Below are positions 2,532 through 20,892 of a DNA stretch of 28,991 nt, piece after piece. The translations under genes and the position numbers were made by a program. Source of the DNA: a virus; IMG/VR virus record IMGVR_UViG_3300047094_000669, positions 1 to 28,991 of that record; one strand, written 5' to 3'. The stretch's first letter is position 1, and the number at the start of each line of letters is the position of its first letter. The notes beneath the pieces are model-generated. The model was given only the letters and a program-made list of their open reading frames with translations. It was not told the DNA's origin and made no database searches.

Positions 2532-3323
2532 TTAGAAAGTACTAAAGTATGGTGGATAGTAGAAATATGGACCAAATGTTGGAGGAAAGAACGGAGGAAA
2601 GAACGGTGGGAAGAACGGAGGAAAGAACGGTGGGAAGAACGGAGGAAAGAACGGTGGGAAGAACGGTGGGAAGAACGGAGGAAGAGTTGTAACAGATCCT
2701 GAAGCAGCAGAGATTATACCAATACCATTACCATTTGTTGCTCTAACAGTATAGGTCTGAGCAGTTCCTGCTGTATCGTTAATAACAATTGGAGATGTTG
2801 CTCCAGTACCGCTTGTGCCATCGCTACCATTAACGGTATAGAGAGTAATTGTTTTACCACCAGTTGCTGGTGCAGTAAAAGCAATTGAGTTTGAGTTTAC
2901 ACCTGCGGTAGCTGTTGGAGCTGACATTGTTGCTGGTACAGTAGTGACTGTTACTGAAGAAGATGTAGTTCCTGTTGAAGATCCTGCGGCATTTGATGAT
3001 TGAACCTTAAATGTATATGCAGTATTTGATGCAAGACCCTGAAAGGTATAAGATGTACCTGAAGTACCTGTTGTAACAGTGTATGTAGATGGAGTTGTTG
3101 TAATTGTATAAGATGTAGCGGCTGGAGATAATTCTGGCAATGTCCAAGATAGCGATACTGCTGCTCCAGTATTTGCTGCAGAGGCTGCAGATGTGGTATT
3201 AGCTGTTGCTAAATAAGGACGAGATGTACCAACATCGGTAGCTGACAAGCCTGTAACATTTGAAGGTTCCAAAAAGTCATTTGACGCTTGGGACTTTCTA
3301 CCTGATTTCTTGCCTGCTGCCAT
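2532..3323 (-). CDS. Fibronectin type III protein with FFPP-repeat C-terminus
   Basis: This 263-aa virion or fibre-type protein has a basic N-terminus (1-12). A first FN3-like domain spans about 20-130 (SLSW, YTFQGLASNTAYTFKVQSSNAAG), and a shorter second about 131-215 (YTVRATNGNGIG). Eight consecutive PPFF units (215-248) follow, then an aromatic tail rich in Y, F and P. FN3 domains on phage particles usually aid weak surface binding. The PPFF run comes from a 12-bp DNA repeat and should vary in length. An AGGAG site precedes the ATG. It lies at the end of the fibre gene series. Confidence 0.75.
   Translation of the reverse strand: MAAGKKSGRKSQASNDFLEPSNVTGLSATDVGTSRPYLATANTTSAASAANTGAAVSLSWTLPELSPAATSYTITTTPSTYTVTTGTSGTSYTFQGLASNTAYTFKVQSSNAAGSSTGTTSSSVTVTTVPATMSAPTATAGVNSNSIAFTAPATGGKTITLYTVNGSDGTSGTGATSPIVINDTAGTAQTYTVRATNGNGIGIISAASGSVTTLPPFFPPFFPPFFPPFFPPFFPPFFPPFFPPFFPPTFGPYFYYPPYFSTF
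2575..2690 (-). repeat. 12-bp coding minisatellite (FFPP units)
   Basis: About eight tandem in-frame 12-bp units encode PPFF. Two synonymous versions alternate: TTCTTTCCTCCG and TTCTTCCCACCG. The repeat is likely to slip in units of four residues without changing frame. Confidence 0.9.
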
Positions 3324-3354: not shown

Positions 3355-5856
3355 CTATGCTGTCAAGTCGCCGTAGACAACCCATGTATTTTCTGCTCTC
3401 TTGAAAAGAGTTGCAGATGACCACTGAGTTCTTAACTTTAGTCCTGGTGTTGCATTTACTGTAACTCCTGCTGTTCCAGCTATTGTTACTTGTCCTGTAG
3501 ATGTTTGAAGAATATCAAGAGATGTTCCCACTGGGAAGGCAACTGTTGAGTTTAGTGGAATAGTAATTGTTGTTGCTGATGCCTTTGCAACTTCAATTAA
3601 AGAATCTCTTTCAGAAAGTGCTGAAAGTGTATAGGAATCTGTCTTTGCAATAATTGGAGTTCTTGATGGAACGCCTTCTTTTGTTTGAGTTCCATCAGTA
3701 AATATAAAACCACCAGCGGTTGAGCTAATAACTGCAGTTCCATTTACCTTTAAGTCTTTTCCTGAAGCAAGGTTAATATGCTCTGAAGAAGTCCAAGAGT
3801 CTGTTGCATCTACCCAGTTAAAGGTTTTATCTGTTGCGCCCTTTAATGTGATACCGCCACCATCAGCAGTTGTATCTGTAGGGGTTGTTGCATCTCCAAG
3901 AACAATGTTCTTATCTTCAATAACAAGGTTAGTTGAGTTAAGGTTTGTTGTTGTTCCGTTTACTGTTAAGTTTCCAGAAACAGTTAAGTCTGCTGCAGAT
4001 AATGTTCCAGTAAATGTAGGTCCTGCAAGATTAGCCTTAAGATCAAGTGCTGTTTGTGTAGCAGTAGAAACTGGCTTGTTAGCATCTGTTGTATTATCAA
4101 CATTTGCAAGACCAACATCTGTTTTTGTAATTCCAGTAGGTGTATTAATTACTGGTGAAGTTAAAGTTTTATTTGTAAGTGTTTCAGTTTTAGATGCAGT
4201 TGACTTATCATCTAATTGTGTTTGGATTGCTGAAGTAACTCCATCAAGATATCCAATCTCAACATCCGAAACATTAGCAACAGTTGCCTGCTTTCCATTT
4301 AGTTGAGTTTGAATGGATGAGGTAACACCATCTACATAGCCAAGCTCTGTTGATGACACTGTTCCAACTGATGTATCTGATGGAAGAACTACTGTCCCAG
4401 TAAATGTAGGTGATGCAATTGGTGCATAAGTTGTTGCAGCATTTGACGAAGCAAGTTTCGCATCAAGTGCTGTTTGAGTAGCAGTTGATACTGGCTTGTT
4501 TGCATCTGAAGTATTATCAACATTTGCAAGACCAACATCTGTTTTTGTAATTCCAGTTGGAGTATTAATTACTGGAGAGGTTAAAGTTTTGTTAGTTAGA
4601 GTTTCAGCTTTAGAATCAGTTGACTTAGCATCTAGCTGTGTTTGAATAGAAGAGGTAACACCATCAAGATATCCAATTTCAGTATCTGTAACATTTGCTA
4701 CACGAGTCTGTGTAATTGATGTATCAATTGAAATAACTCCTGGAGTTGCCTCTTGTAGACCATTTCCAGTAACAATTGTTTTAGCAGCATTAAACTCTGT
4801 GTAGGTAATATCACTTGTTCCAATTACTATTGGGTTTGCTGTTGAGCTATTAACATATCCAAAAGATGCATTTACTGTTCCGTTTTGAACAAATGTAAAG
4901 TCTCCAGACTTCATTTCTCCAGTTGGGTTATTATCTGAATCTGTTGCACGAGTTAATACCCATGGAATAGATCCTGATCCAACTGTTGTCAATGTATAAA
5001 TACCATTTTGTTTTGCGTCAGTCTGATTCTTAACAAGAACTCTTTGACCAATAGCAACTGATTCTCCATCAAGTGTTCCAAATGCACGGTTTGTATCTGC
5101 TGTAAGAGTTGCACCTACTCCAGATGTTCCGTTTGCATAAATTGTTGCTAAGTTTGCAGTTGATGCTGCGTGTACTGCCTCATGGAAGTTAATTCCAGCA
5201 GTTACGTTGTCAACATAGAGTTTAGTTGCTGCATCTGAATCTGCAGTTGGTGCACCAAGAGCTGTCAGTCTATTACTACCCATTGAAAAGCTGCTGCTCA
5301 TAGTTCCGCCAGCAGTTAGTGACAACTTTCCATCTAACTGTCCTTGAACTCCTGAAGTTACACCATTAAGGTAGGCAATCTCTGTATCTGAAACTTCTGC
5401 AATAACTTTTTGAACTACTGTAGGATCTATTGTTAGTTTATTATCTACAATTCTTAGTCCATCGCCTGACGTAATGTCTACATCTAGTGTAATTGTGTTT
5501 CCATTATCATCATATGTTTTTGTTATACCGCTTCCACCAACAAGTGCAGTATTGATTGCATCTTGTGAAAGCTCATCCATATTTGGAATCTGGTTTGCTG
5601 GAACTTTACCAGAGCCGTCCAGTGTAGCAACACCGTTGGCCGCAGCCCTTTGTGTTAATGGAATGTAGTCATCAATGCTTCCACCAAGAGCAATTGCGTC
5701 TAAGAAGTAGTTAAGGTCGTCCCAGTGATTGTCACCGTCACCTATTTTAAATTTATTTGTATCGCTTTCATATCCAATTTCACCAGCATTTAAAACTGGA
5801 TTGGCAGTGGTCCACTGTGCTGCAGTGCCTCTACGCTGTTGCATTCTTGTTGCCAT
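3355..5856 (-). CDS. Large modular tail fibre protein, 833 aa
   Basis: The N-terminus (RMQQRRGTAAQWTTANPVLNAGEIGYE) is the phage-fibre head found in Mtd-like and other receptor-binding proteins, probably the virion attachment part. Repeated modules follow: D-TEIGYLDGVTSSIQTQLD segments near 155, 387 and 530, and two near-identical LTNKTLTSP/VGLANVDN modules at about 386-466 and 523-606. An LVIEDKNIVLGD/TDSWTSSEH module lies at about 633-700. The C-terminus (LKLRTQWSSATLFKRAENTWVVYGDL) is a typical fibre end. It probably forms a trimeric shaft used in host adsorption. AAAGGAG precedes the ATG. The repeats favour recombination. Confidence 0.85.
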   Translation of the reverse strand: MATRMQQRRGTAAQWTTANPVLNAGEIGYESDTNKFKIGDGDNHWDDLNYFLDAIALGGSIDDYIPLTQRAAANGVATLDGSGKVPANQIPNMDELSQDAINTALVGGSGITKTYDDNGNTITLDVDITSGDGLRIVDNKLTIDPTVVQKVIAEVSDTEIAYLNGVTSGVQGQLDGKLSLTAGGTMSSSFSMGSNRLTALGAPTADSDAATKLYVDNVTAGINFHEAVHAASTANLATIYANGTSGVGATLTADTNRAFGTLDGESVAIGQRVLVKNQTDAKQNGIYTLTTVGSGSIPWVLTRATDSDNNPTGEMKSGDFTFVQNGTVNASFGYVNSSTANPIVIGTSDITYTEFNAAKTIVTGNGLQEATPGVISIDTSITQTRVANVTDTEIGYLDGVTSSIQTQLDAKSTDSKAETLTNKTLTSPVINTPTGITKTDVGLANVDNTSDANKPVSTATQTALDAKLASSNAATTYAPIASPTFTGTVVLPSDTSVGTVSSTELGYVDGVTSSIQTQLNGKQATVANVSDVEIGYLDGVTSAIQTQLDDKSTASKTETLTNKTLTSPVINTPTGITKTDVGLANVDNTTDANKPVSTATQTALDLKANLAGPTFTGTLSAADLTVSGNLTVNGTTTNLNSTNLVIEDKNIVLGDATTPTDTTADGGGITLKGATDKTFNWVDATDSWTSSEHINLASGKDLKVNGTAVISSTAGGFIFTDGTQTKEGVPSRTPIIAKTDSYTLSALSERDSLIEVAKASATTITIPLNSTVAFPVGTSLDILQTSTGQVTIAGTAGVTVNATPGLKLRTQWSSATLFKRAENTWVVYGDLTA

Positions 5857-13743: not shown

Positions 13744-13772
13744 CAGTAAATGTCAGACCCCCCTGTTATACT
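13744..13772 (+). promoter_or_regulatory. Early-type promoter, TGTCAG class
   Basis: TGTCAG (13751-13756) and TATACT (13767-13772) at the standard distance. The -35 at 17-bp spacing (CAGTAA) is poor; a TTGTCA lies just upstream at 13740. Starts the main rightward array. Confidence 0.65.
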
Positions 13773-15218: not shown

Positions 15219-15425
15219 ATGAAAAAAATATATCACTCCCTGCAATTCGTAACAGAAGTAGACGAAACTCACCCAGTAGTACAACGCCTGCTATCACTTT
15301 CAGAACTTGACCAAGTGCAACTGCTTGAGTCAATGCTTAAAGAAATGCTTGCACCACGCATTCAACCTGCACTAGATGAAATAAATGAGCGGGGCACTTA
15401 TGCAATTCTTAAGGTGGCAGAGTAA
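15219..15425 (+). CDS. Small helical protein, 68 aa
   Basis: ATG at 15219 is chosen because AAAGGAA lies just upstream; a longer frame would overlap the gene before. MKKIYHSLQFVTEVDETHPVVQRLLSLSELDQVQLLESMLKEML... is mostly helical and acidic. Unknown function. Confidence 0.62.
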   Translation: MKKIYHSLQFVTEVDETHPVVQRLLSLSELDQVQLLESMLKEMLAPRIQPALDEINERGTYAILKVAE

Positions 15426-15604
15426 TGATGACACGCAAGGACTATGTAGCCGTTGCAGAAATTCTTTCATCGTATAAAGATTTAATCGGTGATGAATTTA
15501 CTTTTGAGGATTTGGTAGAGGATTTTTCTGGAATGTTTGCAGAGGATAATCCAAATTTCAAACACGAAATATTTAGAGAAGCGTGTTTGAAAAACAATTT
15601 CTAA
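15425..15604 (+). CDS. Small phage protein of MTRKDY type, 59 aa
   Basis: Two ATGs in a row overlap the previous stop (TAATGATG). MMTRKDYVAVAEILSSYKDLIG...FEDLVEDFSGMFAEDNPNF resembles short proteins starting M-T-R-K-D-Y/F that occur widely in phage genomes, without known function. Last gene of its operon; a 24-nt hairpin element follows 13 nt after the stop. Confidence 0.65.
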   Translation: MMTRKDYVAVAEILSSYKDLIGDEFTFEDLVEDFSGMFAEDNPNFKHEIFREACLKNNF

Positions 15605-15617
15605 ATAAAATAAAAAT

Positions 15618-15641
15618 CCTGAGCAAGATCTAAAACTGCTC
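15618..15641 (+). ncRNA. 24-nt operon-end hairpin element, copy 1
   Basis: Begins CCTGAGCAAG and ends AAAACTGCTC; GAGCA pairs with TGCTC across an 11-nt loop. AAATTTT follows. Between a stop codon and the next regulatory cassette. Confidence 0.65.
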
Positions 15642-15663
15642 AAATTTTGGCCCGGCGTGTCGT

Positions 15664-15726: not shown

Positions 15727-15755
15727 TTGTATTTGTCAGTCCCAGATGATAGGAT
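15727..15755 (+). promoter_or_regulatory. Early-type promoter, TGTCAG class
   Basis: TTGTAT (15727-15732), 17-bp spacer with TGTCAG and TGA, TAGGAT (15750-15755). Confidence 0.8.
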
Positions 15756-17579: not shown

Positions 17580-17720
17580 ATGAAAAAAACAGCAGAGGAA
17601 TTACGCAGGCTTATGGAATTGCGCCGAAGCAATGCTGCCTCTGCCGTACCCAATAAAAAGAAATACAACCGCAAGAAATGTCAGTCCCTAATGCTAGAAT
17701 TAAAGAAAGAAAGCGAGTAA
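17580..17720 (+). CDS. 46-residue basic protein overlapping GP88 start
   Basis: MKKTAEELRRLMELRRSNAASAVPNKKKYNRKKCQSLMLELKKESE; strongly basic and helical, perhaps nucleic-acid binding. Leaderless start. Its last 43 bases overlap the next gene in another frame, so the two may be coupled. Confidence 0.55.
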   Translation: MKKTAEELRRLMELRRSNAASAVPNKKKYNRKKCQSLMLELKKESE

Positions 17721-18649: not shown

Positions 18650-18811
18650 ATGACAGTAGCAACAGCAACATACAAGGTCGGCGACACCTACACTTCACAG
18701 AAGTCAAAGGTTACAGGAACTATCTTGGAAATCGTACCAACAGACAAGAACACAGTTCGTGTGAAGTTAGATGTAAATGGCAACACACGCTGGACTACTT
18801 GGAAGGCGTAA
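18650..18811 (+). CDS. Small SH3/KOW-like protein, 53 aa
   Basis: ATG follows AAAAGGAAAC. MTVATATYKVGDTYTSQKSKVTGTILEIVPTDKNTVRVKLDVNGNTRWTTWKA reads as a five-strand small barrel (VGDTYTSQK, VTGTILEI, TVRVKLDV, TRWTTW), similar to short actinophage proteins. Possible nucleic-acid or protein binding; single-gene operon. Confidence 0.65.
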   Translation: MTVATATYKVGDTYTSQKSKVTGTILEIVPTDKNTVRVKLDVNGNTRWTTWKA

Positions 18812-18841: not shown

Positions 18842-18863
18842 CTAAATAAGTGGCAGGAACTAT

Positions 18864-18887
18864 CCTGAGCAAGATACTAAACTGCTC
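18864..18887 (+). ncRNA. 24-nt operon-end hairpin element, copy 2
   Basis: Begins CCTGAGCAAG and ends AAACTGCTC; the same GAGCA/TGCTC stem and 11-nt loop. Immediately followed by the next promoter region. Confidence 0.65.
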
Positions 18888-18916
18888 ACCACAATGTCAG
18901 ACCTACCCACTATAAT
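18888..18916 (+). promoter_or_regulatory. Promoter with TGTCAG but no -35
   Basis: TGTCAG (18895-18900) and TATAAT (18911-18916) at the standard distance; the -35 position holds ACCACA. No CRP-like site upstream. Confidence 0.6.
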
Positions 18917-18948: not shown

Positions 18949-19374
18949 ATGTCAAGAGGCAAAGCAATATCAGTAAAAATCCCTACTCAGCGAGTAATCG
19001 CAGGGTTAGAGTCATCACTCGCTAAACTAGAAGCAAACTACGCAACACAAGAAGCCAACGAAGCAAAGTATGAAAAGGCTATGGAAAAATGGCGCAAGGA
19101 ACTTCAGGCGTTTGCTATTGCAAACATCAAGAAGGCTGAAAACTTCCGTACAAACTATCGCTCATACAATAACAGACTAAACATTGACTATGATATTATT
19201 GTAGCCAATGATAAGGAACTGCCAGTAGAACCTGAGCGTGAACACGAACTTCTGCGCCAACACGAATATCGTGAGCAGAAAGAGGAAATCACAAACGCAA
19301 TCCGTATTCTAAAAATGACAGATGAGGAAGTTGTAAATACTTCTACATACAACGCGGTTGCTCGTTATCTATAA
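18949..19374 (+). CDS. Coiled-coil protein, actinophage-type, 141 aa
   Basis: AAAAGGAAACC precedes the ATG. MSRGKAISVKIPTQRVIAGLESSLAKLEANYATQEANEAKYEKAMEKWRKELQ... is a basic N-terminus followed by a long coiled-coil-prone helix (about 20-62). A second helical region follows (about 90-125, EREHELLRQHEYREQKEEITNAI). MSRGKAI-type openings occur in actinophage hypothetical proteins. Unknown function. Confidence 0.68.
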   Translation: MSRGKAISVKIPTQRVIAGLESSLAKLEANYATQEANEAKYEKAMEKWRKELQAFAIANIKKAENFRTNYRSYNNRLNIDYDIIVANDKELPVEPEREHELLRQHEYREQKEEITNAIRILKMTDEEVVNTSTYNAVARYL

Positions 19375-19415
19375 ATAAAATTAGGGGGGCAACTTAAAGT
19401 CCTGAACCCTAACGA

Positions 19416-19439
19416 CCTGAGTAAGTCGCAAAACTGCTT
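19416..19439 (+). ncRNA. 24-nt hairpin element, copy 3
   Basis: Begins CCTGAGTAAG and ends AAAACTGCTT; the stem GAGTA/TGCTT is held by G-U pairs, so both sides changed compatibly. Confidence 0.6.
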
Positions 19440-19492
19440 ATACAATTTAATAATTGCAGGGGTTCCAGAATAGACTAGTCGCCTCTGCATCA

Positions 19493-19516
19493 CCTGAGTA
19501 AGTGTATAAACTGCTC
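19493..19516 (+). ncRNA. 24-nt hairpin element, copy 4
   Basis: Begins CCTGAGTAAG and ends TAAACTGCTC; the stem GAGTA/TGCTC contains one G-U pair. Confidence 0.62.
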
Positions 19517-19578
19517 ACTAAGTTTCACAAGAAGGATAAACGTGGATATTAGTTCCACACACGTCCTAGTGAAAAATT

Positions 19579-19602
19579 CCTGAGCAAGAATTAAAAAGGC
19601 TC
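19579..19602 (+). ncRNA. 24-nt hairpin element, copy 5
   Basis: Begins CCTGAGCAAG and ends AAAAAGGCTC; a 4-bp GAGC/GCTC stem remains. ATTTTT follows, so this copy looks most like a terminator. Confidence 0.6.
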
Positions 19603-19621
19603 ATTTTTGCGGCCGGGCCGC

Positions 19622-20772: not shown

Positions 20773-20787
20773 CGTAACAAAATAAAT

Positions 20788-20811
20788 CCTGAGCAAGATT
20801 TAAAACTGCTC
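20788..20811 (+). ncRNA. 24-nt hairpin element, copy 6
   Basis: Begins CCTGAGCAAG and ends AAAACTGCTC. It lies 15 nt after the DUF932 stop and four nt before the tRNA 5' end. Confidence 0.65.
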
Positions 20812-20815
20812 GCAA

Positions 20816-20892
20816 GATTCCATAGATCAATTGGTTAGATCGCTACCCTGTCACGGTAGAGGCTGCGGGTTCAAGTCCCGTTGGAATCGCCA
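20816..20892 (+). tRNA. tRNA-Asp (GTC), CCA encoded
   Basis: Acceptor GATTCCA (20816-20822) pairs with TGGAATC (20882-20888). Anticodon stem CTACC/GGTAG encloses CTGTCAC with GTC at 20850-20852. The T-arm is GCGGG-TTCAAGT-CCCGT and the D-arm GATC/GATC. Discriminator G and an encoded CCA (20890-20892) complete it. It probably shares the DUF932 transcript. Many local proteins are Asp-rich, which a phage tRNA-Asp could serve. Confidence 0.95.

Follow-up and report, generated by a model that had tools for sequence, protein, structure and literature searches.

Coremin (xrRNA_C; GUC[CGAA]GAC-GUUAAACUAC), which occurs in benyviruses and others, stops Xrn1 and also stalls scanning ribosomes, its requirements being a hairpin, a loop of the form YGAD or YGNNAD, the C and U of a spacer, and any second hairpin (Dilweg et al. 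2023, PMC10520033). Flaviviral xrRNAs are likewise pseudoknotted and often stand in tandem with stem-loops between them, and a flaviviral xrRNA stops the bacterial RNase J1 in vitro (PMC5760640), showing that a fold can stop the bacterial enzyme.

Here we analysed a window of 28,991 nt, given as one strand (positions 1-28,991 of IMG/VR record IMGVR_UViG_3300047094_000669), in which a constant element recurs within and outside an array of hairpins. This constant part is a pseudoknot, which had been overlooked in the initial annotation. On comparison of the sequences, it is best described as a compact H-type RNA pseudoknot of ~28 nt rather than a sequence repeat, with the consensus (S1)-CC-UGAGYA-NG-(S1')-n-AAAC-UGCUYA. 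Helix S1 has 2-5 variable bp and closes the loop CC-UGAGYA-NG, and helix S2 is formed as the UGAGYA of this loop pairs with UGCUYA, located after a nearly invariant AAAC.

The phage element and coremin have several traits in common. Both have a small hairpin with a conserved closing C-G and variable lower pairs, S1 covarying in the phages with CC...NG kept constant; in both the loop starts with C (Y) and ends with A-N; and both have a (GUU)AAACU spacer right after the hairpin, including the essential C and U (UUAAACUAC), with AAACU following S1' in most phage copies and the complete UUAAACU in several phages. Both are also sited in 3' UTRs and intergenic regions, and are sometimes repeated. 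However, the phage loop C-UGAGY-A-H has U instead of G at position 2 and thus departs from YGAD and YGNNAD, and whereas coremin has an independent hp2 hairpin, the downstream helix of the phage element is S2, built with the hp1 loop. We did not file the element as coremin because of this loop position and the lack of a separate hp2. Coremin, moreover, has a short loop and is found in plant, fungal and other RNA viruses, in contrast to the 8-nt loop and the dsDNA phages of the element studied here. The flaviviral xrRNAs differ further, having a much larger three-way-junction fold and no sequence in common with it.

The preQ1-I riboswitch (RF00522) is a minimal H-type pseudoknot with an A-rich third loop, but it is found in gene leaders, in single copy and with another loop consensus, and the phage element gave no covariance-model hit. 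That the element would be a ligand-sensing riboswitch related to preQ1-I, which it resembles in topology alone, is very improbable: Rfam searches of the window returned only tRNA at gathering score, with no family matching the pseudoknot, relaxing the cutoff to E<=10 added no more than a miRNA match attributable to chance, and the six window copies lie beside unrelated units, at gene ends and before tRNAs. Type III toxin-antitoxin ToxI RNAs are small pseudoknot units that are also present in phages. They form tandem repeats 5' of an endoribonuclease toxin gene, however, whereas the phage copies are dispersed beside unrelated genes; in the window they are spaced 77 nt to 3 kb from each other, the space being occupied by hairpins or genes, and no toxN-like gene was found among the tested neighbours (DUF932, GP88 and proteins without a Pfam match).

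Pseudoknot helices and copies in the window

Inspecting the flanks of IMG/VR matches, we found that the 2-3 nt 5' of CCTGAG complement the 2-3 nt 3' of CCTGAGYAAG. For 127 distinct viral copies, picked by internal sequence alone with S1 disregarded, Watson-Crick pairs were seen in 126, 125 and 87 copies at pairs 1, 2 and 3 of S1, respectively, compared with 60, 38 and 45 in shuffles. A scan for H-type geometry over both strands of 3.4 Mb gave 154 hits with the loops CC/AG and 33 with CC/TG, no other loop pair exceeding 16. S2 was formed in 354 of 383 sites that had been picked by S1, CC, closing G and AAAC, S2 pairing not being a selection criterion, and its most constant pair was the A-U adjoining AAAC (356/383). 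With the dominant UGAGYA excluded, S2 was still found in 47 of 76 sites (shuffles: mean 22, max 29). Control patterns having CC, the closing G or AAAC altered left 1-2 sites, and the pseudoknot was lost when AAAG or TTAC replaced AAAC.

The natural variants of S2 included UAGGYA/UGCCUR, UAAGCA/UGCUUR, UGGGUA/UGCCCA, UGGACA/UGUCCA, UGAUCA/UGAUCA and UGGCCA/UGGCCA. Across all of IMG/VR, 33 contigs had the compensated GGCC variant of S2 (CCTGGCCA...AAACTGGCCA), compared with 2 for a change confined to the 5' strand and 1 for a change confined to the 3' strand; no contig had the reversed pattern. S1 was present at 21 of 22 distinct compensated sites, and the two uncompensated sites that we inspected both lacked it. 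Covariation thus supports both helices of the pseudoknot. The invariant CC, NG and AAAC loops exceed the needs of pairing, which would suit a binding site for a host or phage protein recognising knot and loops, such as an RNase recruiter, an antiterminator or a translational repressor; with the element found in phages of many phyla and no common neighbouring gene family seen, we regard such a site as rather unlikely. A candidate further pseudoknot form (CCTGCCACATG...AAAACTGGGTA) abuts a canonical copy 5' of DUF932 in loci L235, L250 and L251.

In the window, the pattern CCTGAGYAAGNNNNNAAANNGCTYA (<=3 mismatches) had six matches, all on the + strand, versus 0.07 expected from dinucleotide shuffles. 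Three are the array elements CCTGAGYAAG...GCTYA starting at 19416, 19493 and 19579, and the other three (15618, 18864 and 20788) lie beyond the interval of the initial annotation. Copy 1 (15616..15642, +; S1 AT/AT, followed by CC, TGAGCA, AG, ATCTAAAAC and TGCTCA) is located ~11 nt 3' of the stop of an ORF at 15425-15604. Copy 2 (18861..18888, +; S1 TAT/ATA) is the sole element in the gap between an ORF ending at 18811 and the gene of a 141-aa protein (18949..19374, +), initially annotated as a coiled-coil gene and without a match in a Pfam search. This gene lies 5' of the array, which contains copy 3 (19413..19440, +; S1 CGA/TCG, CC, TGAGTA, AG, TCGCAAAAC, TGCTTA), copy 4 (19491..19517, +; S1 CA/TG, CC, TGAGTA, AG, TGTATAAAC, TGCTCA) and copy 5 (19575..19603, +; S1 AATT/AATT), the last being of a GGCTCA subtype in which AAAAAGGCTCA replaces AAAACTGCTCA and the A-U pair adjoining AAAC is lost. 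The same subtype recurs in loci L010, L030, L048, L064 and L109. Following the array is a DUF932 gene (PF06067; 19756..20772, +) with a GTG start, and 3' of its stop (20772) we found copy 6 (20783..20812, +; S1 TAAAT/ATTTA), 3 nt 5' of a tRNA-Asp (20816..20892, +).

Hairpins between the copies

The three hairpins and three elements of the array, as initially annotated, were all found where they had been placed. It also held that a constant element follows each hairpin, but the 3-4 nt read as a spacer between them (cga, tca, aatt) belong to the element and contain the 5' strand of its S1. Hairpin H1 (19382..19412, +) has the arms TTAGGG (19382-19387) and CCCTAA (19407-19412), with TTTCATAG-GGGG-CTATGAAA, TTTGATAG-GGGG-CTATCAAA or TAG-GGGG-CTA at this position in relatives. 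H2 (19455..19489, +) pairs TGCAGGGG (19455-19462) with CCTCTGCA (19482-19489), including one G-U, and its relative in locus L064 has AGAGGGG/CCTCTCT, the arms being altered together. H3 (19523..19574, +) consists of nested helices (TTTCAC/GTGAAA, AGGAT/GTCCT, GTGGA/TCCAC), with outer arms TTTCAC at 19523-19528 and GTGAAA at 19569-19574 and inner arms ACGTG/CACGT.

Both arms of H1 and of H2 change together in relatives, and among five homologous sequences H3 showed double-sided compensatory changes in 4 of 16 pairs, in agreement with the expectation that the arms would be conserved as pairs in homologous loci. The suggestion of a structured RNA was likewise borne out. The 251-nt array region folds better than its shuffles (z -3.5), this being a nested fold that cannot represent the pseudoknot. 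Across 80 loci that share this DUF932 gene, the preceding gap usually holds at least one pseudoknot, by an automatic count that missed S2 variants visible in the sequences, and the inserts between copies differ. Given these varying inserts, hairpin and element do not make up a fixed unit, and together with the both-arm changes of H1-H3 they identify the hairpins as conserved structured RNA modules distinct from the pseudoknot. The repeat unit proposed in the initial annotation had therefore to be abandoned: the element is found by itself at three other sites of the window and in many phage contigs, and homologous loci have different hairpins, or none, between the copies. H3 is a candidate small RNA; it is restricted to some phages, where it is located 5' of a pseudoknot (loci L218, L222, L232 and L267).

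Placement relative to genes and a possible barrier to decay

The positions of the element were analysed in gaps between ORFs of at least 110 aa, a cutoff raised because the convergent neighbours in a first count had mostly been short spurious ORFs. As the loci were selected for having the element, only the comparison between gap types counts: a same-strand element was found in 171 of 566 co-directional gaps (antisense in 1), compared with elements in 2 of 33 convergent and 6 of 52 divergent gaps. Its orientation was uniform, being that of the flanking genes. In 174 of 329 cases (53%), no more than 12 nt separated the upstream stop from the start of S1, and a distance of less than 5 nt was hardly ever seen, 5-12 nt often being left between stop codon and pseudoknot, whereas the distance to the downstream gene varied widely. 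This agrees with the initial placement of elements at gene ends. The further idea of an intrinsic terminator, or of relics of operon ends, would fit the T-rich tails after some copies, but a T-run followed only 10-23% of the co-directional copies and none of the six in the window was called terminator-like. Dropped on these T-run statistics, and at odds with both the scarcity in convergent gaps and the copies that lie between minor head and scaffold genes inside late operons, which have to be transcribed throughout, that idea is very improbable in our judgement.

In annotated phages, the scaffold-gene sites place the pseudoknot between the minor head gene, 10-50 nt upstream of it, and the scaffold gene, 36-65 nt downstream, as seen in Staphylococcus SA13 and B166 (with a shortened S2), Lactobacillus KC5a, phiEF-1.1 and phig1e, and at the corresponding position in Bacillus Page. 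PHROG matches of non-redundant neighbours gave several scaffold families downstream and minor-head and head-morphogenesis families upstream. No canonical copy preceded the scaffold gene in Staphylococcus phage phi11, Lactococcus TP901-1 or Listeria A118; in the last (L310 ~4515-4550), a hairpin CGACCTGTTCGGAAGTCGTAAAAAG before the scaffold gene resembles a half-element without S2. Elsewhere, the pseudoknot was found 5' of tRNA-Gly in Arthrobacter Amigo, 5' of DNA primase in crAss cr7_1 and 3' of ribonucleotide reductase in Roseobacter SIO1 and Lentibacter ICBM1. A tRNA followed within 150 nt 3' of 23 of 147 viral copies, mostly at 3-13 nt.

The latter copies lie where RNase P would create a 3' end, and together with the tight tie to the upstream stop codon and the loose one to the downstream start they would suit a 3'-end stabiliser or processing mark, shielding upstream mRNA from 3'-5' exonucleases after a downstream cut made by RNase P at tRNAs and by other endonucleases elsewhere. 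We hold this to be unlikely, since the element is depleted in convergent gaps, where 3' ends most need protection, T-runs are infrequent, and the coremin-like core and the absence from E. coli would go unexplained. The near lack of S1 starts closer than 5 nt to a stop, and the block of scanning ribosomes by coremin (PMC10520033), could instead point to a knot that keeps read-through or sliding ribosomes from the next cistron, or that tunes termination. Such a ribosome barrier is improbable in our view, with further copies preceding tRNAs or arranged in tandem within non-coding RNA, and with almost half of the copies more than 12 nt from a stop.

We instead propose, giving it about an even chance, that the H-type pseudoknots work as 5'-3' decay barriers between phage cistrons. 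The pseudoknot would act in polycistronic phage transcripts in the manner of the exoribonuclease-resistant coremin, so that a 5'-3' exonuclease (RNase J where present), starting from a cut in the upstream cistron, would halt at S1, and the RNA downstream, be it a capsid operon, a tRNA or a small structured RNA, would outlive the upstream cistron. With tandem pseudoknots separated by conserved hairpins, as in the window, decay would then end with small stable non-coding RNAs, comparable to those of flaviviral 3' UTRs. The structure, orientation, placement and spread of the element were established by comparing sequences; the nuclease stop, the enzyme responsible and the benefit to the phage we infer.

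For this exonuclease block we count the core common to coremin, i.e. the closing C-G, the loop Y...A-N and the spacer AAACU, together with the nearly invariant A-U pair adjoining AAAC. A role in insulating RNA from decay would also fit the location of the element between co-directional cistrons and ahead of capsid genes with strong expression and of structured RNAs. Counting against it, the loop G2 and hp2 of coremin are missing from the phage element, and a tRNA needs no 5' protection once RNase P has cut. Moreover, some window copies lie 5' of a likely promoter (18895-18916), and the main downstream transcript may therefore omit the pseudoknot. This promoter-like motif, TGTCAGNCC-N5-9-TAnnnT, had four matches in the window versus 0.01 expected, all on the + strand (13751-13772, 15734-15755, 17679-17700 and 18895-18916). 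Some of these motifs are found immediately 3' of a pseudoknot, and similar sequences precede the same genes in relatives.

Hosts, RNase J and CRISPR spacers

Matches to the pseudoknot were found in phages of Staphylococcus, Lactobacillus, Bacillus, Arthrobacter, Mycobacterium, Streptomyces, Rhizobium, Roseobacter, Lentibacter, Paracoccus, Synechococcus, Christensenellales and Bacteroidota (crAss-like). Matches in Erwinia and Pseudomonas phages were low-scoring, S1 and the pseudoknot not being formed, and were rejected. Plasmid matches came from Bacillota and one Rhizobium, and no match was found among 5,426 E. coli genomes. Class-wide genome scans gave matches too few for host groups to be compared, with 3 of 377 for Bacilli and, besides the centre genome, none for Gammaproteobacteria and Bacteroidia.

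Among 28 genomes carrying an element with paired S1, a clear RNase J was encoded in 17; it was not found in the other 11, including Flavobacterium, Polynucleobacter and Beggiatoa, some of which are incomplete or perhaps mis-binned. The 17 of 28, together with the lack of matches in E. coli, we counted in favour of a stop of RNase J, which could not be the sole target because some element-carrying hosts, among them Bacteroidota, lack it and crAss phages carry the element.

We put it at just short of an even chance that DNA phages of several phyla own a class of tiny exoribonuclease-resistant pseudoknots shielding their cistrons from 5'-3' decay, a prokaryotic counterpart of the plant and flaviviral xrRNAs that would have the coremin core by convergence or descent. 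The fold itself is strongly conserved, absent from Rfam and found alike in Staphylococcus, Lactobacillus, crAss and cyanobacterial phages. Should RNase J be stopped by it, this would explain how phages separate the levels of capsid mRNA from those of neighbours in one transcript, would provide a 28-nt portable RNA-stability part, and would mean that plant and bacterial viruses reached the same anti-decay core. Literature searches for a phage pseudoknot, for xrRNA with RNase J and for the sequence itself, with preprints and most subscription journals outside their scope, returned no description; a prior description elsewhere would undo the claim of novelty, leaving the structure intact.

An Ignavibacteria genome (CP054675.1; L202 5055-14750) has a CRISPR array of 140 spacers, five of which contain the pseudoknot element, all in the same orientation (two-sided p 0.06). 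The genes beside this array, cas1, cas10/csm1 with HD and GGDD motifs and Csm-type RAMPs, would by our reading make up a type III-A system. The repeat and the strand of the cas genes predict a crRNA complementary to the pseudoknot, the polarity that type III immunity requires for targeting RNA, and the uniform spacer orientation is suggestive of transcription of the pseudoknot strand. Acquisition of the spacers from RNA was also considered, and no reverse transcriptase match was found in the CP054675.1 genome.

As a separate observation in the window, a predicted protein encoded at 2532-3323 (- strand) has a C-terminal PPFF tandem repeat (FFPPFFPPFFPP) and adjoins a protein (3355-5856) that has an Mtd domain at its N terminus.
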